Positions 37,926-53,940 of a stretch of DNA of 64,000 bases are shown piece by piece. The stretch is from Eubacteriales bacterium (GTDB lineage: Bacteria > Bacillota > Clostridia > Oscillospirales > Butyricicoccaceae). The stretch's first letter is position 1; each line of letters starts with the position of its first letter. The stretch lies in assembly GCA_030524205.1 (NCBI GenBank), contig JAUNGZ010000002.1:86776-150775 (forward strand), given 5' to 3'. A model generated the notes under the pieces. That model searched no databases. It was given only the letters and a program-made list of their open reading frames with translations, and was not told the DNA's origin. Both the position numbers and the translations under genes were made by a program.

Positions 37926-38306
37926 ATGGCACAGGAGCAGAAAAAACTGGATGATGGAGGGAAATCATCCGCCCGGCTGCAGCGGCGGATTCAAGCTGTA
38001 GCAATCACCTGCTACATGGCCGTTCTGTTTATTCAGCCGGCAGCGGCAGCAGATACCATGTGGACGAGGTTTTCCAGCATCATGGCAGATGTCTATGGCG
38101 AACTGGTAGGGATATCCACTATTGTCGCAGTGACGGCATCGGCAGTTGCCCTACTGGTGCGGATGATCTCACGCAATGAAAGGGCAGTCGCTGAAGCCAC
38201 AAGCTGGCTGAAGCGAATTGTCGTCACCTGGCTCGTTTTGAACACCCTGGGTTTTGCGGTCGCATACCTGCAACCTTTGATCCAAGGCGGACAGTACACG
38301 CCATAA
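37926..38306 (+). CDS. VirB2/TrbC-like small membrane protein
   Basis: 126 residues. A short basic cytosolic N-terminus is followed by a signal-like helix (VAITCYMAVLFIQPAAAADT, possible cleavage after AAA) and two hydrophobic spans (LVGISTIVAVTASAVALLV, IVVTWLVLNTLGFAVAYL) separated by a basic loop (RMISRNERAVAEATSWLKR). This is the layout of VirB2/TrbC pilins and the Maff2-type proteins of clostridial conjugative elements. Position before VirB6-, PrgI- and VirB4-like genes supports a role in the mating channel. ATG behind GAGAGGAGG. Assigned on topology and context, not on a strong motif. Confidence 0.62.
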   Translation: MAQEQKKLDDGGKSSARLQRRIQAVAITCYMAVLFIQPAAAADTMWTRFSSIMADVYGELVGISTIVAVTASAVALLVRMISRNERAVAEATSWLKRIVVTWLVLNTLGFAVAYLQPLIQGGQYTP

Positions 38307-38326
38307 TCTGAAGGAGGAAGTTTACC

Positions 38327-39307
38327 GTGAGAAAAAAACTCGCATTTATTTCGACCACACTGCTGGTACTGTCTATTCTGGCAGTACCTGCCAGTGCGGC
38401 GAACACCCCCGCTCTGTCAGAACCCGATGCGATGCTGCCAGTGGATATCGTTGTTGACACTCAGGCGAATGAAATTCGAAAAGTCTATGACCTCCCTCCT
38501 AATACGGACCCTTCCACATTGCCTATGGAAGCATTTGAACGGGACGAGATGCTGTATGAATGCACCGACATCCTCCGGGAAGTCATCATTGGCAATGAGA
38601 CGCAGGTGATCACCCAAAGTGAAACAGTAGAAAGCGAGAAGAAGGATTTGGAGACGCTTCTGGAGCTGTTGCCTCAGGAAAAGGAAGTCACCACGGAGGA
38701 CGGTTATACTGGTACTTTGATGCTGGACCTGGATTCCATCAAGAGCGAGGTATCCGGATACGGTACCAGCAGTAAGGCAGTCACAGCTACACGCAGTTAC
38801 CCAAACTTATCGGATGCCGATACGAACCATATCCCTAAAACGGTCGAGGATGGGGGGCGGACCCTCACTCTACAGGATGTCCAATGGCAGACCGATAACA
38901 CTTACAACGCGGATGACTACGAGATCGGAGATCGGTACACTGCGATCTGCACCTACGGCGGTACCAAGTCCACCAGTTATGTCAAGGGATACACCACCAC
39001 CGCAGACTACACCGGCGAAGTTTTCCGTACCGGCGTATCGGTCATCCGATATACGGTCATCTTCAGCGGAACGCCCGTTGAACCTGTAGAACCAGAGCAA
39101 ACATCAGATGCCGGAGCTGTTCCGGTATGGCTGTTTACTGTGTTCCCCGCACTGGCCGCCCTCGGTGCCGGTGTCGGCGGGACCTATTATCTTATGAGAC
39201 GAAAGGAGCGCAAGGGCTATGAAGAGATGGAAAACCACGGTGGCTGCTACACTGATAACGCTCATGGCGATGATGACACCGGCTCTGGCGGCGGAGTATC
39301 AAATTGA
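38327..39307 (+). CDS. Secreted, C-terminally anchored surface protein of the secretion cluster
   Basis: 326 residues. It has a signal peptide (LVLSILAVPASA), an extracellular part of about 240 residues with no recognised domain but many Thr/Tyr/Asp residues, a C-terminal membrane helix (VPVWLFTVFPALAALGAGVG) and a short tail (RRKERKG then an acidic/glycine stretch). Start is GTG 38327 behind AAGGAGGAAG. The last 89 bases, encoding the cytosolic tail, are read in a second frame as the signal peptide of the sortase gene. It probably forms part of the cell-surface side of the transfer apparatus; function unknown. Confidence 0.65.
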   Translation: MRKKLAFISTTLLVLSILAVPASAANTPALSEPDAMLPVDIVVDTQANEIRKVYDLPPNTDPSTLPMEAFERDEMLYECTDILREVIIGNETQVITQSETVESEKKDLETLLELLPQEKEVTTEDGYTGTLMLDLDSIKSEVSGYGTSSKAVTATRSYPNLSDADTNHIPKTVEDGGRTLTLQDVQWQTDNTYNADDYEIGDRYTAICTYGGTKSTSYVKGYTTTADYTGEVFRTGVSVIRYTVIFSGTPVEPVEPEQTSDAGAVPVWLFTVFPALAALGAGVGGTYYLMRRKERKGYEEMENHGGCYTDNAHGDDDTGSGGGVSN

Positions 39308-40010
39308 CGCACCGGAGGGCAGTATGTACGCACCGTCCACTACCGTCGATCAGGTGACCGTTGTGGGTGGCGGAATTACTGAGAGCAGCAATGTGGACCG
39401 GAGCAAAAATACCGCTGTGATTGCGCCCCCTTTCGGCAGCAACGAATCCTACCTGCCTGGAAGCGGGACGGTACTCATCCCGCAGTATTCATCCGATGCG
39501 GGCGGAGAGACCTCTGCTTCAGGTACAGTGTATTACCCTCCTGCTGAGGGGACGGTAGACGGATCTGCCAATGTGACGACCAACAACAGTCAGACCCAGT
39601 TCACTCTGCCGGACGGACTTTATTATTCTGATGGCAGTTTGGGAACCTTGAAGATTCCCACTCTCGGGCTCAAGGTGAAAGTTTATGAGAGTGAGAGTCT
39701 GGAGAGTCTTGCCAAGGGCGCAGGACATTTCAAGTCCACCTCCTGCTGGGACGGAAATATTGGTCTTGCAGCGCATAACAGAGGCGTCGCCAATCATTTC
39801 GGCAAGATCCATACACTGGATGAAGGCGACGAAATCACCTATACAACGAAGTTGGGCACCAGAACATATGAGGTGTTCTATGTCGGTCAAATTAAAGAGA
39901 CAGACTTCTCCAGACTGGGGCGGTCCAGTGAAAATATGATCACACTGATCACCTGCGTCCGCAATGTCCCTGAGATGCGCTGGTGTGTTCAGGCCCGGGA
40001 AATCAGCTGA
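39219..40010 (+). CDS. Sortase with N-terminal signal peptide
   Basis: 263 residues. The signal peptide (VAATLITLMAMMTPALAAEY) has an apparent AXA-type cleavage site and there is no C-terminal helix. A Ser/Thr/Gly-rich linker leads to the sortase barrel (about 140-260), with IPTLGLKVKVYE, catalytic His in GLAAHNRGVANHFG (about residue 186), catalytic Cys in MITLITCVRN (about 245, TLxTC type) and Arg near the C-terminus. Sortases cleave LPxTG between Thr and Gly and join the protein to the wall or to other proteins. The giant repeat protein two genes downstream ends in LPRTGY and is the evident substrate. Overlaps the previous gene by 89 bases; AAAGGAG upstream. Confidence 0.82.
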   Translation: MKRWKTTVAATLITLMAMMTPALAAEYQIDAPEGSMYAPSTTVDQVTVVGGGITESSNVDRSKNTAVIAPPFGSNESYLPGSGTVLIPQYSSDAGGETSASGTVYYPPAEGTVDGSANVTTNNSQTQFTLPDGLYYSDGSLGTLKIPTLGLKVKVYESESLESLAKGAGHFKSTSCWDGNIGLAAHNRGVANHFGKIHTLDEGDEITYTTKLGTRTYEVFYVGQIKETDFSRLGRSSENMITLITCVRNVPEMRWCVQAREIS

Positions 40011-40087
40011 GTATAGGAATTCTTGTTGCAAAAACCGCCTCTCTATGGTGTAATTTGAACAAGAGGACATCATAGGAGGTAGCAAAC

Positions 40088-41485
40088 ATGAAAAAGCTGA
40101 GTTCTATACTGCTATGCGCTATACTGACCCTGGCAACGGCGTGTCCTGCACTTGCCGTCGAATCTCAGACTGAACTAAATACTGCCGCAGTTCACCTCAA
40201 GGAACAGGGTATTATGGTCGGAGATCAAAGCGGAGATCTGAAACTGGACAGTGGGCTGACCCGGGCGGAACTGGCTGCGTTGCTGACCCGGCTACACGGA
40301 GGGGCGGAGACGGATCCCACCCACTACACATGGGCCTGTTATTTCACAGATGTGCCGGACTGGGCCAAGCCCTATGTGGGTTACTGTACCGCCAATCTGC
40401 TGGTGACTGGCTATGGCAATTCCATGTATGGCCCTTATGATTCCGTAACGCCGCAGATGGCCTGTACCGTAATCCTTCGTGCTTTTGAATACACAGATGG
40501 CTGGAGCTATACAACGGCCTGCCCCTACGCGGTGCAGCAGGGCCTGATCGACTACTCCGCTACCCAAGAGGAAGAGATCTCCCGTGGGGATATGGCGGTG
40601 CTGATCTACCGGGCCATGCAGAAGCAGAGCGGAGAGCTGGATGTCCCCACGGCACCTGTGACTCAAGCAGATGGCATCGTCACCGCATCGGATGGAACGA
40701 TTACCAGCAAGACCATCACGCAGGGAGACTGGAGTCGGGAGGATTTCAGCCAGCAGGCAAACCCGGACATTTTTACTGGTTACTACACGCGGGGTTGGTA
40801 CAACGCTATCCGCCAGAGTATCCTGGACCGAGATACCATTTTAGCTGGGAATAACGAGGATGACCTGAACCTCCAGTATCTCTACGCACATACCCTTGTA
40901 CCTGACGATCCGAATGAGCTTTTCTACGCATTTTCTGATGTCTTAGGCCGATTGACCAGTTCCTATATCTATCAGTTAGGAGCTGAATCCTACACCAAAA
41001 ACCAATATGAATACCCAGGTTATACGATCATCAAAGTCTGTCGGACTGAGCCGCTTACAGAGGCGATTGCCTATGCTCAAACTGTGGCGAAGCGCTTGGA
41101 TGGGAAGAGCGATGCAGAAAAGGTAATGTTTCTTAACGATTATCTATGCAATAGGATTGACTATGGCGAGGGAGAATCCATCTCTTACACAGACATCTTT
41201 TCTGAACAGGGTCCCGTTGTGTTGGGACAGTGCGGAGTCTATACCACGGCTTTTAAATATCTGTGCTCTGTGGCAGAAATCCCCTGTATTTCAGTTTTGT
41301 CCGAGAACCATAGTTGGAACGAGGTATATGTGGACGGTCGGTGGCTGACCGTAGATGTTACCTATAATGACGCCAGCGCAGGACGGGACTACTACCTGCT
41401 GACCACACAGGCGGCCCAGACGGATCGAAATCCTGAGGGTACCCGATTCGCACGGGAACTTTTAGTTCCTGGTTCTACAAAATAA
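40088..41485 (+). CDS. SLH-domain protein with transglutaminase-like cysteine protease domain
   Basis: 465 residues. A signal peptide (CAILTLATACPALA) is followed by two to three SLH-like segments (about 25-190: LDSGLTRAELAALLTRL, YFTDVPDWAKPYVGYCTA, GDMAVLIYRAMQ) and a C-terminal transglutaminase-like fold (about 340-450). The Cys-His-Asp triad appears as VLGQCGVYTTAFKYL, ENHSWNEVYVDGRW and VDVTYND. Such domains cleave or cross-link proteins or peptidoglycan peptides. Being held at the wall by SLH units beside a sortase and an adhesin, it may open or modify the envelope during mating or process surface proteins. It is closed by a terminator at 41525. Strong AGGAGG upstream. Confidence 0.82.
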   Translation: MKKLSSILLCAILTLATACPALAVESQTELNTAAVHLKEQGIMVGDQSGDLKLDSGLTRAELAALLTRLHGGAETDPTHYTWACYFTDVPDWAKPYVGYCTANLLVTGYGNSMYGPYDSVTPQMACTVILRAFEYTDGWSYTTACPYAVQQGLIDYSATQEEEISRGDMAVLIYRAMQKQSGELDVPTAPVTQADGIVTASDGTITSKTITQGDWSREDFSQQANPDIFTGYYTRGWYNAIRQSILDRDTILAGNNEDDLNLQYLYAHTLVPDDPNELFYAFSDVLGRLTSSYIYQLGAESYTKNQYEYPGYTIIKVCRTEPLTEAIAYAQTVAKRLDGKSDAEKVMFLNDYLCNRIDYGEGESISYTDIFSEQGPVVLGQCGVYTTAFKYLCSVAEIPCISVLSENHSWNEVYVDGRWLTVDVTYNDASAGRDYYLLTTQAAQTDRNPEGTRFARELLVPGSTK

Positions 41486-41524
41486 ATCGATCCATAGGGC
41501 TTTGCCACATGGGTCACCCTCTCT

Positions 41525-41556
41525 AAGAGGACCATCTTCAAAGGTGGTCCTCTTTT
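41525..41556 (+). terminator. Intrinsic terminator before the giant adhesin gene
   Basis: A 10-bp stem (AAGAGGACCA/TGGTCCTCTT) with a 10-base loop and T5 tract. It separates the transglutaminase gene from the adhesin, which must use readthrough or its own promoter. Confidence 0.82.
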
Positions 41557-41599
41557 TCTATGCCCATTTTGAACTTTCAAACTGGAAAGGAGACCTATC

Positions 41600-44500
41600 A
41601 TGCAATCAACTTGCTGGAAAAATCGAATTATGTCGCTTTTGCTGGCTCTGGTGACCATGTTCTCTCTGATGGCCACACCGGCTATGGCGGCAGTCGCACC
41701 GGACAACAGCGGCTCCCTAGCCGATGGTAGTTCCTCGGTTACCATCAAACAGGGAAATTATGTTCGTATTTTGAGCAAATCCACCGGCGGGACAATTGGT
41801 GGAATGGCTTGGTCCTATACCTCGGATAAAAATTTGACCGGGCCGGCCTACTGTGTCAACTGGGGACTAGATGCGGTCAGCTCCACCAAACGGCTGGAGA
41901 TTACTGGGCGGTACGACCGAAATCCCCAGACCATGGGCGCTTTTGCCAATGGGTATCCGCAGCGCACGCTGGAGCAGTTCAAGGAACTGCATTCTGATAT
42001 CAACGGTATCGCCAACTTGACTCAAACAGAGTATGCCTATGCTACGCAGTTGGCCATCTGGGCTACCTGTGGCCAACTGGCAGTACCAGGGACTTCGTTT
42101 GCGACTGGCCGGGCCTCTCTGGTTAAGCCCACCTCTGATGCTCAAAAAATTCGGGTTTATGAATCTGTAGTGGAAATTCTGAACTTGGCCGCTGGCTGGT
42201 CGAAGCAACTCTACACCGGCCTATATTTCCATATGGAAAAGGACAAGCTTGGAAATTCCATTAGTATTTACAATGAAGACGGATTAGAGGGTGCGGCAAG
42301 AGATAATCAAAACGGACTCAAAAAAGAAACCATCAATGGTGTGGAATACTACACCCGCCTAATGTATATCGACAGCGCCACCTCCACCTACCCCAATGAC
42401 TATCAGATCCTCGTCTACGCTATGGATGCCCCATCTGGGACTATCATGGTCAATACAAATAATCAAGTGTTCCCCTCCCGCGAGCAGTGGGGGGCCACTA
42501 TGTATGAAGTACCCACGCCTAAAGCGGAAACCACAAGTCTGAACGCTAATGGCTCCGCCTATACCGGGGCATTCAAAATTTGTATCCCCTGCAATAATGT
42601 GACCGACTCCGGCAGTATTAAAGTAGAGGCCTATGCCGTCATCACTCAGTTCAATCTCTACTTAGCCTATAACCCCGTGGCTACGGAGCAAAGTTACATT
42701 ATCGCGGATCCCGCCTATGTGGGTCGCTTTGCCGAAGCAAATATTAAATGGGATAAAACAGCCGAAGAACCTGAAACCGCCAGTCTTCAGGTTCAGAAGG
42801 TGGATGGCGGTGCCATGCCTCTGGAGGGCGCCGAATTCGAGCTGATCGGCAGTAAAGGCACCACCCGCACAGGAACCTCCGACCAGAACGGTCTTGTAGA
42901 ATGGACGGACCTGCCCGCAGATGAGAGCTATACGCTCTCGGAAACCAAGGCACCAGCTGGCTTCACCATCGTTGCCCCCCGCAATGTTTCCCTGACTGCC
43001 GGCCAGACCGCCTATATCACCATCCAGGACGATACCTCCAAGCATTTCACCATTAAGAAAATTGACGCCCAAAACGGCTCTACCCTTGAGGGGGCAGTGT
43101 TCCGCTTTGAGCAGATTGATGGAGACTATACCACCACCGCCACCACTGGGTTTGACGGCATGATCGACTTTGCCGGTGATGAACTGCCCTTTGGCAGCTA
43201 CCGGGTTTCTGAGGAGCGCAGTCCAACCGGGTACGAGAAGGACACCAGTGTTCAGACGGTCAAATGGGACGGCACCGAGGATGTACTGCTGACTTTCCAG
43301 AATGTGCGGCAGCCCACTATCATCGTATCCAAGGTAGATGGGGTCACCGGCATCTCCTTGCCCGGTGCAACCTTTAACATCTACAAGGACGGAGAGCTGA
43401 TTGGTTCTGCCACTACCAATGACGCGGGCGAGCTCCGCTTCCCCATCGTGGCTGGTGAGGGCTATTTTGAATTTGAGGAGACCGTTGCCCCGGCCGGATA
43501 CCAGCTGGACCGTACCCGTCACGGCATCTATATCGACCCCTACGACCCCAAGACGGAAGATGATCCGGTCTTGACCATTGAAAATTTCAACAATCCATCC
43601 CTGCGGATCATCAAATACGATCAGCAGAGTGGTGACCGGTTGTCCGGCATTACCTTCGAGATCTACCACGATGGAGAGCTGTATGATACCCTGACCACCG
43701 ACGACCAGGGTGAGATCAACCTCTATAATATCCCGGCTGGCACTTGGCTGGTTAAGGAAGTGTCGACGGATGACGAGCATGTGGTCAACTCAACCCCTCA
43801 GCAAATTGAGCTAAAGGAAGGACAACAGGAGACACAGACACTGGTGTTCTTCAATCAGTTAAAGCCAGGCATCCACTTAGTCAAGGTGGACAGCCAGACC
43901 ATGAAGCCGCTCCCCAATGTGCGCTTCGAGTTCAAGAAAGTAGGCGGCAGCTACCAGCAGGAATTCCTTACAGATATCAACGGCGAGATCGACCTGTCTA
44001 AGCTGGAGCCCGGCGCCTATGAAGTCCGGGAGCTGGCGGGACCGGAAGGCTATCTTATGGATGACAGCGTGCGCATCGTCCAGATCAACCCTGATGAAAA
44101 CGCCAATTTCGTTTTCACGAATACGCCTAAACCATCCCTCGTCATCGTCAAGTATGATCCGAACACTGGCAAATATCTGCCCGGCGCCACCTTCCGTATC
44201 GCCAAGGTAGAGGACGGTTCCCATTACCTTGACCGGGTGACCGGGACGGACGGCCGCATCGTGCTCCATGATTTGGAGCCAGGGGTATACTCCGTCCAGG
44301 AACTGGAAGCCCCGTCCGGCTATGTCCGCAATGACACGGAATATCATGTAGAGTTGTTTGCCGGTAAGGAATCTCAGCTGGTGGTGAATAACGAGGCCAA
44401 ACCGGACTTAAAGATCATCAAGACAGATGCGGTGACCGGAGATCCGGTGGAAGGCGTCACCTTCACCATCAAAAAGGCGGATAGTTCCACCCTGCTCACT

Positions 44501-47212
44501 GCTACCAGCGATGAAAAGGGTGAAGTATTTTTGGAGGACCTGGATCCCGGCGTGTATGAGATATGGGAACAGTCGGTCCCGGACAATTACCTCATCAGCG
44601 ATAAGCATGAGATGATCACACTGGAGCCTAATAAACTGGGTGTTGTTCAGTTCCAGAATTATCCTAAGCCGGGATTGACCGTCAACAAGGTCGACAGTAT
44701 TACCGGCGATCCCATCAAGGGCGCCAAGTTCCATGTGACCTACGCCAGCAATGACACTTTCAGCGGTGAGATCAACGACCTGGGCTACTACTACTCTGAC
44801 GAAAACGGGCAGTTCAGCATCAGCAAACTTCAGGACGGCTGGTACCGGGTCGAAGAAGTAGAGCCGGCCTCCGGCTATGCCATCAAGGATCCTGCTATTC
44901 AGGAGTGCTATATCAAGGCCGGCACTCAGAAAACCCTGACCTTTGAGAACACCCCTCTGAGCGCCATCGTCATCAAGAAGGTGGACGCAGACACCGGGGC
45001 CCCCTTGGAGGGGGCCTGGTTCCGCATCCGGTATCTGGATGGCAACTCTGGAACAGGCGGAACCACCATCGGCGAGTACCAGACCTCCAGCAACGGCACT
45101 ATCGTTGTGACCCAGCTAAAAGCCGGTACATATATCTGCGAAGAGATCGCTGCACCGGATGGCTATGTGATTAACGACAGCGCAAAGACGGTCTACCTCT
45201 CCGGCAAGGACCAAGATGTTGTTACTGTGGTCTTTGGCAACGACAAGATGGGCAGCCTGCTCATCTTGAAAAAAGATGCCTCCACCGGAGAACCGCTGTC
45301 TGATGTAGAATTTTTAGTCACCAGCAGTGACGGCGGTGTGATCGGAAACGCCAACGGAAAGTATGTCACGGACAGTGCAGGCACCATCCGCATCGACGGC
45401 CTGGAGCCGGGCATGACGGTCGTTGTTAAGGAAACCCGAACCCGCGAGGGCTATCTCTTGGATGATACCCCGCAAACGATCAAGATCAAAGCGAATGAGA
45501 CGATGACTCTGGAGTTCCGGAACGCACCTAAAGGCAACTTGATTATCACCAAGTTGGACAGTGTGACCAAGGAACCTTTGAAGGGCGTCACCTTTGAGAT
45601 CGTCTACTCTGACGGCTCCTATGTGGACGCTGAAAACGGTACGCTCTCCAGTAAGGGTATCTACACCACTGACACCAACGGCCAAATCATTCTCTCCGGT
45701 ATCAACGGCACCGTGGTCGTCACTGAAACTAAAACTCTGGATGGCTATACCATCGACGAGGACACCCGTTCACAGACTGTGGTGGTCAATCCCAACGACA
45801 CTCAGACCATCACCGTCTATAATACGCCAAACGGTGGTGTGGAACTAATCAAAGTCAACGCTGCCAAAAAGAGTGAGCGGATCCCAAATACCACATTTGA
45901 GATCCGCCGTATGGATGGCGGCCTGGTAGACACCGTGACCACCGACCGGAACGGTCGCGTGTTCCTCGCACTGGAGGACGGCGACTACTACGCCGTTGAG
46001 ATCGAGGCCGGCAAGGGCTTCCGTGTAGATTCTACCCCGCATTATTTTACGGTATCCGGTGGAAAGACGACCAAACTGACCATTACCAATGAAGCTTTTA
46101 CCGGCGTACTGATTCACAAGGTGGACTCTGTCAGCGGTCGGGGCATCCCAGATGTCACGTTCCTGGTCTACGACAGCAAAATGAACCCCATCGACCAAGT
46201 GACTACTGATCAGAACGGCTACGCTTATATTGATGATCTGGGCTTCTCCGGAAAGCTCTATCTCCGTGAGTTGGAGGCAGAAGGCTATATTGTGGACACC
46301 GCACTGAAGACGGTCTATGCAAAGGCCGGCGAAACGGTGGAGGTCACTTGGGAGAACACCCCGATCACCGCTCAGATTCAGATTTGGAAAAAGTCTGCCG
46401 ACGATAATACGATCAACGGGTTCCCGGCCGGTACCCCGCTGGAAGGCGCGGTATTCGAGGTCTATGATAAGTCCAATCGGCTGGTGGAGACCATCAAGAG
46501 TGACAAGCGCGGGCTGGCGGTATCCAGTCCTCTGCCTTTAGGCCGGTATACTGTTAAAGAAGTGCAATCCCCCTCCTATTATGCGGTAAACAGTGAGGCA
46601 GTCACCGTCTACCTGGAGCATTCTGGGCAAATCGTCCAAATCGAGATGCTGAACGAGAGCGTCTACACAAATGTCTCCATCGACAAGACCGGCTATGCCC
46701 AAGTGGTGCCGGGTCAGTCTATCCGCTACACCTTCAAGGAGATCGGCAATAACTCCTCCGTAGCGATTGATAGCTTCTACTGGAGGGACACCTTACCGAC
46801 CGATGCGGTTCGGCTGGATAAGATCATCACTGGGACTTGGTCCGCAAGGCTAAACTATAAAGTTGTGTTCCAGACTAATCTGAATAATACCCAGCGTGTG
46901 CTTGCCGATAACCTGAATACACAGAAAAACTACACGCTGGACGCCTCGGCCGCAGCGCTTGGGCTGGCCTCCAATGAATATGTAACGCAAGTCACATTTT
47001 TGTTTGGCCAGGTCCCTGCCGGCTTTAAGCAGGTCGAGACGCCCTATATCTATTGTAATGTCCTGTCCAATCTGACCCACGAGTATCGCTTCACCAATAA
47101 ATGTGATGTGGGCGGGCTTTGGAAGAACCAGTGGCTCCAGGCCACAGACCGGTGGGTGACTATCGTCTACCGCGGCGGTCCGACTCCCACGCTGCCACGG
47201 ACAGGCTACTAA
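41600..47212 (+). CDS. Giant surface adhesin: thioester domain, 14 Cna_B/SpaA repeats, terminal LPRTGY
   Basis: 1870 residues. A signal peptide (LLALVTMFSLMATPAMA) leads to a thioester domain with Cys85 in AYCVNWG and Gln150 in ATQLAIW, which would form an internal thioester able to bond covalently to a target surface. About 14 Cna_B/SpaA isopeptide domains follow (residues about 394-1687, roughly 92 each), each with a Lys near IVKVD-like starts and an E-box such as YSVQELEAPSGY. A distinct C-terminal domain (about 1690-1860) ends in LPRTGY and stop. The hydrophobic helix and charged tail normally needed after LPxTG are missing in this frame; the +1 frame reads ISVLIGAAFGPSLSLY then RGKR. It is the likely mating adhesin. 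Confidence 0.88.
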   Translation: MQSTCWKNRIMSLLLALVTMFSLMATPAMAAVAPDNSGSLADGSSSVTIKQGNYVRILSKSTGGTIGGMAWSYTSDKNLTGPAYCVNWGLDAVSSTKRLEITGRYDRNPQTMGAFANGYPQRTLEQFKELHSDINGIANLTQTEYAYATQLAIWATCGQLAVPGTSFATGRASLVKPTSDAQKIRVYESVVEILNLAAGWSKQLYTGLYFHMEKDKLGNSISIYNEDGLEGAARDNQNGLKKETINGVEYYTRLMYIDSATSTYPNDYQILVYAMDAPSGTIMVNTNNQVFPSREQWGATMYEVPTPKAETTSLNANGSAYTGAFKICIPCNNVTDSGSIKVEAYAVITQFNLYLAYNPVATEQSYIIADPAYVGRFAEANIKWDKTAEEPETASLQVQKVDGGAMPLEGAEFELIGSKGTTRTGTSDQNGLVEWTDLPADESYTLSETKAPAGFTIVAPRNVSLTAGQTAYITIQDDTSKHFTIKKIDAQNGSTLEGAVFRFEQIDGDYTTTATTGFDGMIDFAGDELPFGSYRVSEERSPTGYEKDTSVQTVKWDGTEDVLLTFQNVRQPTIIVSKVDGVTGISLPGATFNIYKDGELIGSATTNDAGELRFPIVAGEGYFEFEETVAPAGYQLDRTRHGIYIDPYDPKTEDDPVLTIENFNNPSLRIIKYDQQSGDRLSGITFEIYHDGELYDTLTTDDQGEINLYNIPAGTWLVKEVSTDDEHVVNSTPQQIELKEGQQETQTLVFFNQLKPGIHLVKVDSQTMKPLPNVRFEFKKVGGSYQQEFLTDINGEIDLSKLEPGAYEVRELAGPEGYLMDDSVRIVQINPDENANFVFTNTPKPSLVIVKYDPNTGKYLPGATFRIAKVEDGSHYLDRVTGTDGRIVLHDLEPGVYSVQELEAPSGYVRNDTEYHVELFAGKESQLVVNNEAKPDLKIIKTDAVTGDPVEGVTFTIKKADSSTLLTATSDEKGEVFLEDLDPGVYEIWEQSVPDNYLISDKHEMITLEPNKLGVVQFQNYPKPGLTVNKVDSITGDPIKGAKFHVTYASNDTFSGEINDLGYYYSDENGQFSISKLQDGWYRVEEVEPASGYAIKDPAIQECYIKAGTQKTLTFENTPLSAIVIKKVDADTGAPLEGAWFRIRYLDGNSGTGGTTIGEYQTSSNGTIVVTQLKAGTYICEEIAAPDGYVINDSAKTVYLSGKDQDVVTVVFGNDKMGSLLILKKDASTGEPLSDVEFLVTSSDGGVIGNANGKYVTDSAGTIRIDGLEPGMTVVVKETRTREGYLLDDTPQTIKIKANETMTLEFRNAPKGNLIITKLDSVTKEPLKGVTFEIVYSDGSYVDAENGTLSSKGIYTTDTNGQIILSGINGTVVVTETKTLDGYTIDEDTRSQTVVVNPNDTQTITVYNTPNGGVELIKVNAAKKSERIPNTTFEIRRMDGGLVDTVTTDRNGRVFLALEDGDYYAVEIEAGKGFRVDSTPHYFTVSGGKTTKLTITNEAFTGVLIHKVDSVSGRGIPDVTFLVYDSKMNPIDQVTTDQNGYAYIDDLGFSGKLYLRELEAEGYIVDTALKTVYAKAGETVEVTWENTPITAQIQIWKKSADDNTINGFPAGTPLEGAVFEVYDKSNRLVETIKSDKRGLAVSSPLPLGRYTVKEVQSPSYYAVNSEAVTVYLEHSGQIVQIEMLNESVYTNVSIDKTGYAQVVPGQSIRYTFKEIGNNSSVAIDSFYWRDTLPTDAVRLDKIITGTWSARLNYKVVFQTNLNNTQRVLADNLNTQKNYTLDASAAALGLASNEYVTQVTFLFGQVPAGFKQVETPYIYCNVLSNLTHEYRFTNKCDVGGLWKNQWLQATDRWVTIVYRGGPTPTLPRTGY

Positions 47213-47227
47213 TCGCATAAGCGTTCT

Positions 47228-47257
47228 GATAGGGGCGGCCTTCGGGCCGTCCCTATC
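47228..47257 (+). terminator. UUCG-loop hairpin after the adhesin gene
   Basis: A 13-bp stem with one G-U pair (GATAGGGGCGGCC/GGCCGTCCCTATC) and a TTCG loop lies 15 bases after the stop. No T tract follows, so it may stabilise the mRNA end or cause pausing rather than terminate. Confidence 0.5.
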
Positions 47258-47278
47258 ACTTTATCGAGGTAAAAGACC

Positions 47279-49444
47279 ATGTTAGATTGGATATTTGAAG
47301 GCATAGTGAACTGGGTGGCCAGCATTATGACCCAGATCATGGATGCCATATCCGGAGTATTCCTCGGTGCGTTGGGTACGGATATGACCGCAATGGAGGA
47401 GTATTTTCCGTTTGCAGTCAGCGCCTATGTCATTATCCAATACACCGCCTGGGCGCTGCTCTTCCTGATCGTAGTGTGGCAGACCTTTCGCGCCTTCAGC
47501 GGCCCACTGGCAGAAACGGAGAATCCGCTTGCTCTGCTGGCCCGCAGTGCCATCTTTGCGGTGCTGATCGGCTATGCGAAACCTGTATTCAACATCGCCT
47601 TGGATATTGCACGAGCGCCATACACCGCTTTGATGGATTCAACCCTCGACCCGGGCGATTTTACATTCGCTGGAATCGAACAGGCGCTTACCAATGGCCT
47701 TGCGACATTGATCTCCATGGCAACTGTAGTGGGTCTAATCTTACTAATCATCCTTATGATAGCACTTGCCTGGAATTATTTCAAACTCCTTTTGGAGACG
47801 GTGGAACGGTATGTACTGGTTGGTGTGCTCTGCTACACCTCGCCGCTGGCCTATGCTATGGGTGTTTCCAAGGCGACCTCTCGTGTATTTCAGAGCTGGT
47901 GCCGTATGGTGGGCTCCCAACTTCTGCTACTGGTGCTCAATGTATGGTTCCTGAGGGCCTTTAACTCGTCTGTGGGCCAGTTCATCGCAAATGGCGGTGC
48001 CCTTACCAGCGGCAAAGGGAACATCTTTCTCTGGATATTCTGTGCCTTAGCATTGCTGAAGATTGCCCAGAGGTGCGACAGTTATCTGGCAGCGATGGGG
48101 CTGTCCGTAGCGCAGACTGGCAGCAGTATGGGCGTGGAGATGCTGATGGCCGCCCGTGCGCTCACCGGCTTTTCCAAGGGTGGAGGAAATGCCGCCTCGG
48201 TATTTGGCGGAGCCTCTAAGGGAACAGCCGGGGCTGCGTCCGCCGGAGCTGCGGCAGGCGGAAGATTTTCCGGATTTGTCAACCGCATCAAGCCCAATAG
48301 TTTTGTGCGCGACGCTGTAGTAGACGGCGGAAGCCGCATGGGTGCCGGTGGCAGTGTCGGCTTTGTGGGCCGGGTATTCGGCGGGATGGCCGCGCGCAAT
48401 GGCGCCACTCTGACTCCCAATTCGATCTCTTCAGTGGCAACCCGACTGCCCAACATCTCCGGCACCATCGGCGGCGATATTGCCGACCGGAGTCTCACCG
48501 GTTATATGCCCCAGTTGGCAAGCGGTGCGATGGGTAATATGACCTATTCCAACACTCAAATTACCGGCGGCCACATCAGTACCACCGCCACTGGCCCGGA
48601 TGGGCGGCAGGCTCAGGTTGAGCTGTACAATACAGCCCAGCATGATAAACCCATGACGCCGCACACAGTGGTTCAAGCCGCAGACGGGAGTCAGTGGTAT
48701 CAAGTGGCCTCCGGCGATGGGATGGGGGCCTTCTATTCCACCCCTGCGTTTACCGGTGATCTCTCTGAGGCCGCACAGGTCAAGGGAATGTTCCCCAACG
48801 CGCCGGAAGGCACATTGTTGCGGCAGGTGGATGAAGGAACCATGGAGGCCAGTTATCCGGATGGCGGCAATTCCCTTTGGTACAACAGCGCCTTTTATCA
48901 GGAGCCGGATGCCCCTCATGAAACGATCCAGGGCGCAGACGGCTTGGCCTGGTATGCGATGACGCCTGCGGCCTCTGTGCCGCACTTCGAGTCTGTACCT
49001 GCGGACGCTGGCGGCCACAGTAGCACCCCGGGCGTCTTCGGGCCGGTGGCGGAATACAATCAAGCCCTCTTTGGCCAGTTCATGCCAGGCTTCGACCAGC
49101 CGGTGGTTTCTGTGGACGGTTCCAGAGCCAGCGATGGTATCCTGGAGGTACGGCACGAGGACGGCTCTGGGACGGCATTTTATGATCAGGCGGTCTACCA
49201 AGCACCCCGGGGCGATTACCATGTATATGAGGACAGCCGCGGCAGCCAGTGGTACGCCATCTCTGGCACACCTGCAGTGGAACGCCGGCCGGTCTATGAG
49301 GATGGACAGCCAGTCTACGACGGTGATAAGTTGCAGACTTTCAATGTGGAGACCGTACGCTACAAGACGACGCCCACACGCCACTCAGGGCCACAAAAAC
49401 GCTCCGCTGGAGATCGGAAGCCGCCTAACAGAAAAAAGCCATGA
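47279..49444 (+). CDS. VirB6/TrbL-like conjugal transfer membrane protein
   Basis: 721 residues. About six to seven hydrophobic spans lie in the first 300 residues (YVIIQYTAWALLFLIVVW, VVGLILLIILMIALAWNYF, VLCYTSPLAYAMGVSKATS, MVGSQLLLLVLNVWFLRAF). A long Gly/Ala/Ser-rich and acidic soluble tail follows (AASAGAAAGGRFSGF, then blocks around SQWYQVASGDGMGAFY, LWYNSAFY and SQWYAISG that recur). The YTSPLAYAMG segment and this layout are typical of VirB6/TrbL proteins of Gram-positive elements, which form the inner-membrane channel. The tail carries a repeated W/Y-rich unit of about 50-60 residues. Neighbouring PrgI and VirB4 genes support the assignment. Confidence 0.8.
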   Translation: MLDWIFEGIVNWVASIMTQIMDAISGVFLGALGTDMTAMEEYFPFAVSAYVIIQYTAWALLFLIVVWQTFRAFSGPLAETENPLALLARSAIFAVLIGYAKPVFNIALDIARAPYTALMDSTLDPGDFTFAGIEQALTNGLATLISMATVVGLILLIILMIALAWNYFKLLLETVERYVLVGVLCYTSPLAYAMGVSKATSRVFQSWCRMVGSQLLLLVLNVWFLRAFNSSVGQFIANGGALTSGKGNIFLWIFCALALLKIAQRCDSYLAAMGLSVAQTGSSMGVEMLMAARALTGFSKGGGNAASVFGGASKGTAGAASAGAAAGGRFSGFVNRIKPNSFVRDAVVDGGSRMGAGGSVGFVGRVFGGMAARNGATLTPNSISSVATRLPNISGTIGGDIADRSLTGYMPQLASGAMGNMTYSNTQITGGHISTTATGPDGRQAQVELYNTAQHDKPMTPHTVVQAADGSQWYQVASGDGMGAFYSTPAFTGDLSEAAQVKGMFPNAPEGTLLRQVDEGTMEASYPDGGNSLWYNSAFYQEPDAPHETIQGADGLAWYAMTPAASVPHFESVPADAGGHSSTPGVFGPVAEYNQALFGQFMPGFDQPVVSVDGSRASDGILEVRHEDGSGTAFYDQAVYQAPRGDYHVYEDSRGSQWYAISGTPAVERRPVYEDGQPVYDGDKLQTFNVETVRYKTTPTRHSGPQKRSAGDRKPPNRKKP

Positions 49445-49516
49445 CTATGGGGCCGGCACATCTAAACGCAGATGTGCCGGTCCTCTTATTTCATACACAG
49501 AGAAGGAGATGAGCCC

Positions 49517-51022
49517 GTGTATGATGAGCAGCGATTCGGTGACGGCCAGGACAACTATTTACAAGGCGCACAAAAAGCGGCCGAAGCTGCGCAAAAGGTT
49601 GGATCAGCCGCTGGAGCAGCTGGCTCCACAGCGACCGCGGCGGGCGAAGCAACAGCCAATGCGGCAGCCGCCACGGTGCAGGCAAGTGCTCAAACCGGGA
49701 AAGCGGCGGCCCAAATCGCAGCAGGAACAGCGGCCGGAGGTCCATGGGGGGCCATCCTGTCCGCAGCGTGGTCGCTTCGCCATACACTATTCAAGATTCT
49801 CATTTTTATCTGCCTGTTTTTGCTTTTCATCATAGTGGCGGTGGTCTCACTGCCCTCAATCGTGTTCAACAACATTTTTCGCACCGATCCGGCCAGTGTC
49901 GATCCCAACGGCCCTACAGAGGTCGTGGCAAACTTTGATGATCTGTCCGTAACCGTTTCAGACTGCATCCAAAACGGCTATGACGCTGCCTTGGCAAGAG
50001 TGGAACGAATCATCGCAGACGGTGGTTACGACTACGAATTATCCATGGAAGCTCTGGTCAACAACGGGCTGATCTCCAGTGAGTATGATACCTGCTATAC
50101 CTTGGCGGCATATTCCGCCTCCATGGTGCAGCGGGGTACAACTAAAGCAGACCTGCAGAGCAAGCTGGACGCGGTGGCAGACCAGATGTACGCCGTGACT
50201 TATGAAACCAGAGAGACGCAGGTCGCTGTCGGAGGGGATGGCAAAGATGGCGAGTCCGCTGCGCCGGAGATGCAGACGGTACAGTATGTTGCCTGCACCA
50301 TCCATCCTTTCGACCAGTCGGTCATTCTGACGGCATTCGGCGTAGACACCAGCGCCCAATATGACCAGTTCAGCGTCACCTATGGGGAAGCGATCCTCAA
50401 TATGTCAAACGCCTTAAAGATGACCATGTACGGTTCTGTCGGAGAAGGCAGCGTTCCGCCTATCAGCGATGCGGAGCTCAAATTGTTTTTGGCTAACCTG
50501 GACTGTAGTGGGAAACGGAAAGAGCTGATGCGCTGTGCCCTGTCGCTGGTAGGAAGGGTCCCGTACTTCTGGGGCGGGAAAAGCGCCCCAGGCTGGAACG
50601 AGGATTGGAATACGCCCAGGCTGGTGACTTCGGCAGGCTCCAGCAGTACGGGCACAATTCGTCCTTATGGACTCGATTGCTCCGGATTCACAGACTGGGT
50701 CTATCAAACAGCGCTTGGCATCAGCCTCTATGCCGGCACATGGAACCAGTGGGATGCGACCCATGCTATCTCGGAAGACGAGTTGCTCCCTGGCGACCTT
50801 GGCTTCATGGCTGCGCCCGGCACTGTTCCGGTCAATCATGTACTGCTCTATGCCGGGGAAGACTCTGACGGCACCAAACTCTGGGTCCACTGCGCCAGCG
50901 GCACCGGAGTGGTTCTGAACTCCCCGGATTATGTGACTCAGTTCCGGCGCAGGAACGATGTTGACTTAGAAGGTGAGTTCATACCGGCAGACGCAGCAGA
51001 GGGGGCCAATTATGACGGATGA
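49517..51022 (+). CDS. Membrane-anchored NlpC/P60 peptidoglycan hydrolase (VirB1-like)
   Basis: 501 residues. A cytosolic Ala-rich N-terminus (about 100 residues) and one membrane helix (ILIFICLFLLFIIVAVVSL) precede an extracellular middle region and a C-terminal NlpC/P60 cysteine peptidase domain (about 345-490). The triad is visible as YGLDCSGFTDWVY (Cys near 387), VNHVLLYAGE and WVHCASGTGV. Such enzymes cut cell-wall peptides to let the conjugation channel pass. Start GTG 49517 has AAGGAG upstream; in-frame codons back to 49472 lack a ribosome site. Ends inside the prgI start (overlap 11 bases). Confidence 0.87.
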   Translation: MYDEQRFGDGQDNYLQGAQKAAEAAQKVGSAAGAAGSTATAAGEATANAAAATVQASAQTGKAAAQIAAGTAAGGPWGAILSAAWSLRHTLFKILIFICLFLLFIIVAVVSLPSIVFNNIFRTDPASVDPNGPTEVVANFDDLSVTVSDCIQNGYDAALARVERIIADGGYDYELSMEALVNNGLISSEYDTCYTLAAYSASMVQRGTTKADLQSKLDAVADQMYAVTYETRETQVAVGGDGKDGESAAPEMQTVQYVACTIHPFDQSVILTAFGVDTSAQYDQFSVTYGEAILNMSNALKMTMYGSVGEGSVPPISDAELKLFLANLDCSGKRKELMRCALSLVGRVPYFWGGKSAPGWNEDWNTPRLVTSAGSSSTGTIRPYGLDCSGFTDWVYQTALGISLYAGTWNQWDATHAISEDELLPGDLGFMAAPGTVPVNHVLLYAGEDSDGTKLWVHCASGTGVVLNSPDYVTQFRRRNDVDLEGEFIPADAAEGANYDG

Positions 51023-51464
51023 CAGAGAATTCAGCAATGTCTACACCATCCCACCCAACTATACCGATTCCGGGAAATTGCTGGGCGGAATGCTGGAGAC
51101 CCGTAACACCGTAGAGGCTGGCGCCCTGCTATTGCTTATCGGCTACCCAGAACTGATGTGGCTGCACCTGCCGGTAACCGCAAAGATCGTGGTAATGACG
51201 ATGACCCTGCTACCGCTTGGCGTATTCGCCCTCATGGGTATTGGAGGCGACTCACTGCTCCAGTTTATCTGCCACATGATTTCGTACTGGGTGCGGCGGC
51301 GGCAGCTGCATTTCAGGAGGATAGGATATCGCTATGGCACAACAGACAAATACAAGAGAGCTCCGGCCGCGAAACGGGCGGGGCAAACGGCGCAAAAAGG
51401 CCGCCCAACCGGAGTTCGTCCAGGACTACATTCCAATCAAAGAAATTCGCAACGGCATCGTTGA
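51012..51464 (+). CDS. PrgI-family conjugation membrane protein
   Basis: 150 residues. MTDDREFSNVYTIPPNYTDSG opens it, followed by two hydrophobic spans (VEAGALLLLIGYPELMWL, IVVMTMTLLPLGVFALMGIG) and a basic tail. This two-helix PrgI/VirB3-like protein always sits directly before VirB4 in Gram-positive type IV secretion loci, as here. ATG 51012 lies inside the end of the hydrolase gene. Its last 131 bases are also read in another frame as the N-terminus of virB4, an unusually long overlap; that part of PrgI (KRAPAAKRAGQTAQKGRPTG) is low-complexity and basic, so it may be under weak constraint. Confidence 0.82.
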   Translation: MTDDREFSNVYTIPPNYTDSGKLLGGMLETRNTVEAGALLLLIGYPELMWLHLPVTAKIVVMTMTLLPLGVFALMGIGGDSLLQFICHMISYWVRRRQLHFRRIGYRYGTTDKYKRAPAAKRAGQTAQKGRPTGVRPGLHSNQRNSQRHR

Positions 51465-53940
51465 AACGACGGATAGCCGCTATATCAAAATACTGGAGAT
51501 TGAGCCCATCAACTTTTTGCTCCGGTCGGAAGAAGAGCAGTGGGGCATCATCTCCACCTTTGCCAGTTGGCTGAAGATCTCGCCTATGCGTCTGCAGTTT
51601 AAGTCCGTCACCCGTAAGGCCGATTCCGATCAATATGTAGCGGGACTGGAGGCGGACATAGAAAAGGACGATGTGCCCGCCTGCCGGGAGTTGGGCCACG
51701 GCACCATCCGTTTCATCCGCGAGGAGGGCAGCCGTGAGGCTCTGTCACGCCGATTTCTTCTTATCTTTCAATATGAGGCGCTCCGTCGCCGGTCGGATAG
51801 CGATTACGGCGAAGTATACGCTGCGCTTCAGACAGCGGCGCAGAACGCCCGCACCTACTTTGCCCAGTGCGGCAACAACATCGTACAGCCCAAGGATGAG
51901 GATGCCTTTGTGGCGGAGATCCTATATACCTACTTTAATCGCCGGTCCTGTGTGGACGACCCGTTCCACAGCAGACTCAACCGGGTGGTGGTGGATGCTA
52001 TGACAGCCAAGAACAAGGTTGTGGGCATCGATCCTGTACCAAAGATTCGTGCGGTCAACTTTATCGCCCCGCGCGGCCTTGACCTGACTCATGCCGGCTA
52101 CATCGTTATGGACGGGACCTACTATACCTACCTCTACATCCGAAAAAACGGTTTCCCCCAACAGGTGCGAGGCGGCTGGATGTCCTCTCTGATCAACGCC
52201 GGTGAGGGCGTGGATGTGGATCTGCATCTGCGCCGTGAAATACGGGGCAAGACCATTGACCGGGTAGCACAGCGCATCCGGCTCAACCGCACCAAGCTGA
52301 GAGAATTGCAAGATACCTCCACCGACTACGAAGAACTGGCCGGTTCTATCCAAGCCGGATATTACATCAAGCAAGGGCTGTCCAGCCGTAATGAAGATCT
52401 GTTCTACATGTCGGTGCTGATTACGATTTCTGCCCATACATATGAAGAGCTGCAATGGCGCAAGCAGCAGATGAGCGACCTGATGAAGTCCATGGACATC
52501 CAGGTGGGCGACTGCCTCTTCCAACAGGAAGCGGCCCTGCGCTCCACCATGCCGTTTCTGTATATTGACCCCAGTCTTGAGCGCAAGGCTAAACGAAATG
52601 TACTCACATCCGGCGCAGCTTCCACCTATATGTTCACCAGCTTCGAATTATCGGATGACAATGGCATCCTGCTGGGGTTGAATCGGCATAACAACTCCCT
52701 GTGTATCGTCGATCCCTTTAACAGCAAGGTCAACAAGAACGCCAACTTTACCATCTGCGGCACCTCCGGTGCTGGTAAGACCTTTACTATGCAGGTCATG
52801 GCACTGCGGATGCGGATGCGCGGCATCCAGTGCTACATTTTGGCTCCTTTGAAAGGCCATGAGTTTAAACGGGCCTGTCACAAGATCGGCGGGACCTATA
52901 TCAAACTGGCGCCCGGTTCCAGCGCCTGTATCAATGTTATGGAGATACGGCCCACGCTTACCCCGGAGATGGAATTGATTGACGAGCTGGACTATACCGA
53001 TGTGGACTCCATGCTGGCTAAAAAGATTCAACAGCTTATGATTTTCTTCTCCCTCTTGATTCCCGACATGAGCAATGAGGAGGAGCAGATGTTGGACGAG
53101 GCGTTGGTCAAAACCTATGCCAAGTTTGGGATCACCCACGATAACAGCTCGATCTATTCCGACACGGAGAAGGGTACGGTCAAGACCATGCCGATCCTGG
53201 GTGACCTCTATGAGAATCTGATCGAAAATCCGCTGACCAGCCGGCTGTCCACCATCGTAAGCCGGTTTGTCACGGGCAGCGCCCAGAGCTTCAATCGTCA
53301 GACCAATGTGAACCTCGACAACAAATACATCGTCTTGGATATCTCTGAATTAAAAGGCAAGCTGTTGCCAGTGGGGATGATGATTGCCCTGGACTATGTT
53401 TGGGACCAGGTAAAAGCAGATCGCACCAAGCGAAAGATGGTGTTTATCGACGAAATTTGGAAACTCATCGGTGGATCTGCCAACAAGCAGGCGGCGGAAT
53501 TCTGTCTGGAGATATTCAAAATCATACGCGGCTACGGCGGCGGGGCGCTGGCAGCGACGCAAGACCTTTCCGACTTCTTCGGTTTGGAGGACGGGCGCTA
53601 TGGCAGAGCCATCCTCAACAATTCCAAAACCAAGATCATTCTCAATCTGGAGCCGGACGAGGCCGAATATGTCAAGGATGTGCTCAAGCTCACCCGCACA
53701 GAGATTCGCAGTATCACACAGTTTGAACGCGGAGAGGCCCTGATCACCAGCAACAGTAATAAAGTACCAGTTATCATTAAAGCATCCCGCGAGGAACAGC
53801 AGATGATCACCACCGACCGGGCCGAATTGGAAGCCATGCTCAACGAATTGAAAGCGGTAGCCGATGCCGCGGATACGGCAGTAGTGCCGGAACAGGAGGT
53901 GTGTGGTTCAGATGAAGCCAATTCAGCTCTACCCACATAA
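51334..53940 (+). CDS. virB4: VirB4-like conjugation ATPase
   Basis: 868 residues. The N-terminal VirB4 domain is followed by the motor domain with Walker A FTICGTSGAGKTFTMQ (about residue 478), Walker B KMVFIDEIWKLIG (about 705) and a RAATQDLSD-like sensor (ALAATQDLSDFFG). VirB4 powers assembly of and substrate movement through type IV secretion channels and contacts PrgI and VirB6. Ribosome site AGGAGGATAGG. It overlaps prgI by 131 bases and the downstream helicase gene by about 30, showing a tightly packed operon. It is the most certain marker that the element encodes conjugation. Confidence 0.95.
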   Translation: MAQQTNTRELRPRNGRGKRRKKAAQPEFVQDYIPIKEIRNGIVETTDSRYIKILEIEPINFLLRSEEEQWGIISTFASWLKISPMRLQFKSVTRKADSDQYVAGLEADIEKDDVPACRELGHGTIRFIREEGSREALSRRFLLIFQYEALRRRSDSDYGEVYAALQTAAQNARTYFAQCGNNIVQPKDEDAFVAEILYTYFNRRSCVDDPFHSRLNRVVVDAMTAKNKVVGIDPVPKIRAVNFIAPRGLDLTHAGYIVMDGTYYTYLYIRKNGFPQQVRGGWMSSLINAGEGVDVDLHLRREIRGKTIDRVAQRIRLNRTKLRELQDTSTDYEELAGSIQAGYYIKQGLSSRNEDLFYMSVLITISAHTYEELQWRKQQMSDLMKSMDIQVGDCLFQQEAALRSTMPFLYIDPSLERKAKRNVLTSGAASTYMFTSFELSDDNGILLGLNRHNNSLCIVDPFNSKVNKNANFTICGTSGAGKTFTMQVMALRMRMRGIQCYILAPLKGHEFKRACHKIGGTYIKLAPGSSACINVMEIRPTLTPEMELIDELDYTDVDSMLAKKIQQLMIFFSLLIPDMSNEEEQMLDEALVKTYAKFGITHDNSSIYSDTEKGTVKTMPILGDLYENLIENPLTSRLSTIVSRFVTGSAQSFNRQTNVNLDNKYIVLDISELKGKLLPVGMMIALDYVWDQVKADRTKRKMVFIDEIWKLIGGSANKQAAEFCLEIFKIIRGYGGGALAATQDLSDFFGLEDGRYGRAILNNSKTKIILNLEPDEAEYVKDVLKLTRTEIRSITQFERGEALITSNSNKVPVIIKASREEQQMITTDRAELEAMLNELKAVADAADTAVVPEQEVCGSDEANSALPT

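Follow-up and report, generated by a model that had tools for sequence, protein, structure and literature searches.

How could a giant adhesin that stops one residue after its sortase motif be held at a cell surface, and what is it doing among conjugation genes? The question is raised by a 64,000-nucleotide stretch (the window) at the very end of a contig of 150,775 bases (JAUNGZ010000002.1) in the genome of a Eubacteriales bacterium (GCA_030524205.1; 2.2 Mb, 82% complete). From about 32 kb onward in the window the GC content drops from ~0.6 to ~0.5, and a run of genes follows one direction in the order VirB2-like gene, a gene that we call orf326, sortase, SLH-transglutaminase, adhesin, VirB6-like, NlpC/P60, PrgI-like and VirB4-like. 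A first-pass annotation had read this run as a surface module lying between a VirB2-like gene and the other genes of a type IV secretion system (T4SS). We found its gene set and order as claimed, with every open reading frame in its place. That annotation missed the tailless ending of the adhesin and the anchor-poor sortase.

At the level of sequence, the core of this cassette consists of orf326, the sortase and a giant adhesin that ends in LPxTG plus, nearly always, a single aromatic residue; the tip of the adhesin and a further secreted protein (of transglutaminase, CAP or CHAP type) are swappable. We regard it as an even chance that clostridial conjugative elements carry it as an optional surface-attachment device, exchanged horizontally and aiding mating-pair formation.

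The adhesin terminus and the sortase

The adhesin (41600..47212, + strand; 1870 amino acids) has a signal peptide, a thioester domain, 14 SpaA stretches, a conserved C-terminal domain of 190 amino acids that marks the family (46640..47209, +) and the motif LPRTGY followed directly by the stop codon (47192..47212, +). LPxTG thus stands near the C terminus, as in a canonical cell-wall sorting signal, but the reading frame closes one codon after LPRTG and both the hydrophobic segment and the charged tail are missing. Textbook anchoring is impossible because the signal has no membrane part. Nor does the locus have the make-up of a sortase-assembled pilus operon, as the adhesin is single and tailless and the sortase scores under the class C cut-off.

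The same ending is shared by relatives. We searched genome contigs with a profile of the last 190 residues, built from the window and two relatives, and took the best 80 of 212 loci; these were picked through the adhesin C terminus, so the rate of tailless ends is valid for this family and not for SpaA adhesins generally. An exactly terminal LPxTG followed by Tyr or His was present in 79 of the 80 (71 LPRTGY, 5 LPKTGY, 2 LPTTGY and 1 LPRTGH), L131 being the one that differs. In an order-level survey of 394 genomes, the adhesin C terminus matched 44 places, 30 of which were recovered as loci; these 30 include the window and a closely related element (G274), and their genomes are partly common to the 80-locus contig set. 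Here 27 of 30 adhesins end in LPxTG or MPxTG plus Tyr, Trp or Phe. Two of the remaining three (L226 and L228) are broken earlier, and the third (L203, the gene of L054) has LPQTG and a short non-hydrophobic tail. A lone truncated copy or a sequencing error was rejected as an explanation of the window adhesin, given that relatives end in the same way.

Some observations on the wider family stand apart from these counts. The related adhesin of L054 (L054:11391-16097, − strand), with its LPQTG and 24-residue non-hydrophobic tail, is possibly an intermediate form of the tailless signal, and the SpaA protein of L050 has a tail of the usual kind. Five contigs of Flintibacter muris DSM 110149 (L110, L121, L123, L125 and L140) carry the adhesin family, suggesting several elements per strain. 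Searches with the adhesin C-terminal domain gave no convincing solved relative and zero matches in the plasmid and phage collections.

An anchor might be hidden behind the stop codon. We translated up to 50 codons beyond 81 tailless ends by readthrough and in both shifted frames, omitting L131 and counting L030, which is the same element as L064 (G274, seen twice). A hydrophobic stretch appeared in 17 cases. Read by eye, the signal peptide of the following gene accounts for 16 of them, and the remaining case (L092) is borderline; the stop codons are TAA in 34 adhesins and TGA in 47. A C-terminal anchor reached by readthrough or frameshift was rejected on this three-frame test, which leaves no ordinary sorting signal to be seen, hidden or open.

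The sortase (39219..40010, +) is recognizable as such. It matches PF04203 with 76.1 bits (cut-off 26.6) and passes the general model TIGR01076 (52.1 bits, cut-off 39.35); the NCBIfam models for classes C, D and E give 54.8, 42.7 and 55.9 bits, below their cut-offs of 160, 165 and 160. By profile, 5hu4, 2kw8 and 4d70 are among the nearest solved chains. Among 43 full-length family members, counting the window and one duplicate (L030), the catalytic residues H186 and C246 are kept in all 43 and R254 in 42. All 43 start with a short signal peptide, have no further segment hydrophobic enough to span a membrane and keep Ala24 at the predicted cleavage site. A rule-based signal-peptide site test passed the family sortase and also two class C control sortases; it does not tell cleaved from uncleaved signal peptides and was given no weight as proof.

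The same genome offers a comparison. On contig C32 (L264/L266) lies a second sortase, which carries a membrane segment at its N terminus; some 5 kb from it, a surface protein ends in LPQTGG, a membrane segment and an RRK tail. We consider this pair a fair control for the claim that the cassette pair differs. Beyond these genomes, the plasmid collection gave no matches for the sortase or orf326, and in viral contigs the sortase query matched two loci, each with an adhesin ending in LPRTGY.

orf326 and inheritance of the core

The first-pass annotation had also noted a membrane-anchored protein of no recognizable kind, and this description of orf326 (38327..39307, +) holds. A signal peptide and a conserved ectodomain are followed by a C-terminal membrane segment (about 39122-39196) and a basic tail. 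Among 38 full-length members, counting the window and the L030 duplicate, the C-terminal membrane segment is present in all 38 and is followed by at least two Lys or Arg residues in 37. Within the core trio, orf326 carries the only evident membrane anchor. Pfam, NCBIfam and profile searches gave no convincing named family or solved relative; there were weak matches to PF14283 (CD1107-like) in 2 of 35 members and to LPXTG_anchor models in 3 of 35. One of the 38 members (L116) has an LPxTG-like string, LPDSG.

The core genes occur together. In the 394 survey genomes, orf326 was found in 30 and the sortase family in 30, with both in 29, and the adhesin C terminus in 28, of which 24 had the sortase; these genomes are related to one another, so hypergeometric co-occurrence values overstate the significance. 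Taking the 43 full-length adhesins (L030 omitted), the same locus contained the sortase in 42 cases and orf326 in 39. Upstream sequence of 9 kb or more was available for 47 contig loci, of which 42 had the sortase and 41 orf326. In four of the five loci without a sortase the adhesin frame is short (473-983 amino acids), and in the fifth it runs off the locus edge.

These counts bear on the idea that the LPRTGY end is a relic and that the adhesin binds the surface non-covalently, as the adhesin of Bacillus subtilis plasmid pLS20, which has no sorting signal, might do. That adhesin (TIE) works without the host sortases that were tested (PMC8092201). Set against this precedent, a motif that is exactly terminal in 79 of 80 relatives and a same-locus sortase in 42 of 43 full-length cases make a relic very improbable.

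We compared pairwise identities across 38 loci (L030 omitted). Those of the sortase correlated with those of orf326 (rho 0.89) and of the adhesin C terminus (rho 0.90), the range for the trio being 0.88-0.90, whereas adhesin tip and sortase identities gave a rho of 0.19. These values indicate that the sortase, orf326 and the adhesin base are inherited as a unit and that the tip is exchanged.

The tight linkage of orf326 also bears on another reading, in which a short signal suffices for ordinary wall anchoring. Here the sortase would keep its signal peptide as an anchor, the adhesin would be caught during export and joined to a peptidoglycan precursor, and orf326 would be an unrelated helper. 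The sortase has the catalytic residues of, and a relation to, solved sortases, LPxTG itself is by definition what sortases act on (PMC8092201), and the hydrophobic core of an uncleaved signal peptide could serve as an anchor. Yet an uncleaved anchor has no need of the Ala found at the predicted cleavage position in 43 of 43 sortases, and the linkage of orf326 to the sortase is just as tight as that of the adhesin. We see ordinary anchoring as a serious contender, if on the unlikely side.

The exchanged tip of the window copy is a thioester domain (41843..42076, +; PF08341 over residues 82-159, 35.2 bits, cut-off 22) with Cys85 and Gln150 spaced 65 residues apart, so that domain, Cys and Gln of a thioester adhesin are all present. 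Classed by motif, the tips of the 43 full-length adhesins comprise 25 with Cys and Gln, 13 with Lys replacing Gln and 5 with neither. The 13 (L083:5360-6500, L119:5360-6500 and 11 others) are thioester-domain-like, with Cys kept and Lys at the Gln site (YATKMALW versus YATQLAIW). Three covalent routes had been considered open in principle to the adhesin at first pass, by thioester, isopeptide and sortase: the thioester residues are there in the window but are not universal in the family (25 of 43), and the sortase route is not the ordinary one, the adhesin being tailless.

The slot between sortase and adhesin varies as well. In the window it holds a secreted transglutaminase-like protein (40088..41485, +) with a Transglut_core match and one SLH match, whose C382/H408/D423 triad, assigned by motif, agrees with the Cys-His-Asp enzyme proposed earlier. 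Elsewhere the slot holds a CAP protein (L072, L101 and L138), a CHAP protein (L077), a protein without assignment (L083) or nothing (L119). A transglutaminase was found in 12 of the 80 contig loci (E 1e-5; the upstream flank is missing in many loci). With slot contents that vary in this way, the transglutaminase was rejected as a core part of the cassette, whose conserved members are sortase, orf326 and adhesin.

How might the three core proteins work together? In our preferred model, adhesin and sortase would both be exported through Sec, neither being held in the membrane on its own. Outside the membrane, the sortase would cut LPRT|GY between Thr and Gly and join the adhesin C terminus to an amine, while orf326 would supply the membrane anchor normally found on the substrate and dock sortase and adhesin at the membrane. 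The amine may belong to orf326 itself or, alternatively, to a peptidoglycan peptide. The SpaA stalk, of the isopeptide-forming kind, would stiffen the fibre and keep its tip at a distance from the cell body, close to the transfer channel; this tip (the thioester domain in this copy) would be presented to a recipient cell or to matrix and so aid mating-pair formation. We hold this model to be evenly balanced. A bolder form of it, which we hold to be doubtful, is a split sorting system: LPxTG, an aromatic residue and the free carboxyl end would lie on a freely secreted adhesin, the membrane segment and basic tail on orf326, and a soluble sortase would join the two outside the membrane. The result would be a plug-in covalent mating fibre with exchangeable tips, used with several T4SS types.

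Several points count against the model. The sortase signal peptide is only predicted to be cleaved, a judgement made by eye and from conservation. The docking role of orf326 and the identity of the acceptor are guesses. An acceptor lysine on orf326 is possible, and conservation among 67 aligned members (L030 omitted) is indecisive: position 52 is Lys in 64, and position 171 is Lys in 57 and has lost it in 9 of 30 distant members. Another lysine of orf326, in the string IPKT, resembles a pilin-motif acceptor and is at most a candidate.

Sortase and adhesin might instead be released and act in trans, the enzyme linking the adhesin to amines carried by other cells or by matrix; the donor would in this way mark or bridge recipients. 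That neither protein has an evident membrane anchor would suit such tagging, but the membrane protein orf326 is nearly always in the cassette (41 of the 47 loci with at least 9 kb upstream) and so points to retention at the donor. We judge tagging in trans to be quite improbable.

Transfer genes around the cassette

T4SS genes are in view at 73 of the 80 adhesin loci and, among the loci with at least 1.5 kb downstream, at 71 of 77. Of 303 T4SS matches, 302 lie on the adhesin strand, the exception being a relaxase in L136. We drew a second set of 33 regions (L231-L263) from 46 orf326 and 42 sortase places in the survey; 20 of them span 18 kb or more (19 have the sortase, L262 orf326 only), and 18 of these 20 contain T4SS genes. 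In a phylum-wide sample of 398 genomes the sortase family was found in three, this genome included. One of the others (L274) has a VirB4, a relaxase and an adhesin ending in LPRTGY, and in the other (L273) the T4SS-type genes in view up to the contig end are VirB2-like and orf225-like.

The position of the cassette differs between elements. In the window type it fills the VirB2-VirB6 gap; a second type has it ahead of a small VirB2-like gene and VirB6, a third has it ahead of VirD4, and elsewhere it comes after VirD4. In the G274 element, whose VirB4 is 90% identical to that of the window, the VirB2-VirB6 gap is about 9 kb. Seven clusters with a VirB4 70-73% identical (L031-L037) have no cassette and a gap of about 19-83 bp, the VirB2-VirB6 block of L037 being inverted relative to VirB4, whereas L072 and L074 carry the cassette at a similar VirB4 distance (69% and 73% identical). 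A member of the sortase family is present somewhere in 11 of the 25 genomes that have a VirB4 of the window type. We conclude that the cassette goes with T4SS and that T4SS do not need the cassette. It is an optional plug-in, as the seven close clusters without it indicate. The earlier description of a surface module within a secretion cluster is supported, and that of a device built into the machine is not.

A role in mating has to be weighed against a set of adverse observations. Transfer does not depend on the cassette, since cassette-free T4SS clusters exist, and seven of the 80 loci have no T4SS query match. Four of these seven (L092, L124, L130 and L137) have a giant methylase/helicase-like gene, three of them with a ParB-like gene also, and the other three (L107, L109 and L131) have little downstream sequence; these labels, like the housekeeping-type label below, are by-eye readings. 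L249 has no T4SS genes within 20 kb, and its adhesin is broken; although the cassette genes are not, overall, independent of secretion genes (73 of 80 loci and 18 of 20 long regions), in L249 they stand without them. L263 has housekeeping-type genes on one side and the contig end on the other. In the 13 shorter survey regions (3-16 kb), T4SS genes occur in two and in none of the other 11. The window copy itself has neither VirD4 nor relaxase before the contig end. Finally, knockout of the sortase on Clostridium sordellii plasmid pCS1-1 is reported to have had little effect on conjugation (PMC5770547).

Several of these observations favour a different function, in which the cassette would bind host mucus or matrix and ride conjugative elements for the benefit of the host cell, with no role in DNA transfer. 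Cassette-free T4SS clusters, the hardly altered transfer in the pCS1-1 knockout and the discussion of C. difficile elements with a sortase and collagen-type substrates as colonization cargo (PMC6814731) are all in keeping with it. Against cargo, the cassette lies inside or beside T4SS genes of several types and on the same strand (302 of 303 matches at the 80 loci), and pLS20 provides the precedent that such an adhesin can serve mating. On this evidence colonization cargo seems unlikely to us.

The neighbouring genes in the window are those of a transfer cluster of this kind. On the 5′ side, the VirB2/TrbC-like small membrane protein (37926..38306, +) has a match to PF04956 below the cut-off (E 0.0042) and adjoins VirB6 in relatives; its frame opens at TTG 37878, and the internal ATG at 37926 is as likely a start. 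The first T4SS gene 3′ of the cassette is VirB6/TrbL-like (47279..49444, +; 18.7 bits, below the cut-off of 27). A wall hydrolase of the T4SS cluster with an NlpC_P60 Pfam match (49472..51022, +) and a PrgI-like small membrane protein (50973..51464, +) come next; the latter has no family match in Pfam or NCBIfam and is labelled from its position before VirB4, conserved in relatives. The VirB4-like conjugation ATPase (51334..53940, +) has the CD1110 family as its best NCBIfam model, NF045971 scoring 293 bits over residues 29-814, below the cut-off of 325 and still the top model.

Beyond VirB4 lie a helicase, an HD protein, DUF5697, DUF6100 and orf372, and then a large serine recombinase on the opposite strand. 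The window, which stops where the contig does, gave no VirD4-like match. This genome has strong VirD4 and relaxase matches on another contig and a short VirD4 fragment on a third. As the G274 element has VirD4 3′ of orf372 (L057:503-2233), VirD4 may lie beyond the contig end or have been lost in this copy. The recombinase (59167-60861, −) abuts orf372 where G274 has VirD4, which is either an inserted second element or a deletion, the two being indistinguishable with the contig ending at 64000. The helicase, which has HA domains (53903-56086), separates VirB4 from the HD protein. It is missing from this place in the G274 element (L030) but has relatives in L061 and L062, and so has the look of another optional insert. 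At the low-GC edge before the transfer region is an AbiEii nucleotidyltransferase of a type IV toxin-antitoxin family (33831-35365, −) with an adjoining gene of 199 amino acids. The window contains no Rfam match at the gathering score and no tRNA.

Relation to known systems

How Gram-positive donors hold recipients is poorly known. Gram-positive conjugation systems often use wall-anchored adhesins (review PMC12857230). That sortase-bearing clostridial elements are known in part, as the first-pass annotation supposed, is borne out by pCP13 with pcpD/cnaB (PMC8941779), pCS1-1 with srtB/CnaB (PMC5770547) and the C. difficile 023_CTn elements (PMC6814731), which combine a sortase and a Cna-type protein with transfer loci. 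A sortase and a Cna-type adhesin beside a T4SS is therefore already known, and all of these elements share the sortase, the Cna-type surface protein and conjugation genes with the one described here. In the accessible parts of those sources, by description only, they are not presented as tailless, with a secreted sortase or with an orf326-type partner. Literature searches, with most subscription journals outside their coverage, brought up no description of an LPxTG adhesin that is tailless and paired with a secreted sortase.

The cassette resembles canonical cell-wall sorting in its LPxTG motif and in a sortase fold recognized by sequence with His, Cys and Arg. It is unlike canonical sorting, in which the sortase is membrane-bound, in that the substrate lacks a membrane segment and charged tail and the sortase lacks a clear membrane anchor. 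A T4SS of the same family with a surface module is found on Vescimonas fastidiosa pMM35_02 (NZ_AP023417.1; VirB4 48% identical), but that module differs: its pilins are ordinary and bear full sorting signals, and its sortases are annotated as class C and have hydrophobic N termini. Its SpaA/SpaH pilus operon (L270:23452-28949), with two annotated class C sortases, follows VirD4, as if the slot had taken a different surface module.

The trio is conserved across many gut Clostridia, and a covalent mating fibre, if there is one, would matter for the spread of genes in the gut. Should the sortase and its substrate work without anchors of their own, the system would depart from the textbook sorting signal and could yield a natural enzyme that ligates free C termini.

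A further close likeness is to the pLS20 adhesin (TIE, p34; PMC8092201), a large exported protein with thioester and Cna-type domains that is encoded in a conjugation operon and, like ours, has no usual signal of LPxTG plus membrane segment. The two differ in that pLS20 TIE has no LPxTG and no plasmid sortase and is described with three structural domains, versus 14 SpaA stretches here. Cys68 and Gln256 of pLS20 are widely spaced, versus 65 residues between Cys85 and Gln150, so the window domain does not have the spacing of a class II thioester domain. The pLS20 adhesin is required for efficient conjugation, as is its reactive Cys; it has no sorting signal, the host sortases tested were dispensable and its mode of attachment is explicitly called open (PMC8092201). 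Because the adhesin described here comes with its own sortase, motif and membrane partner, attachment can be tested directly with three proteins.

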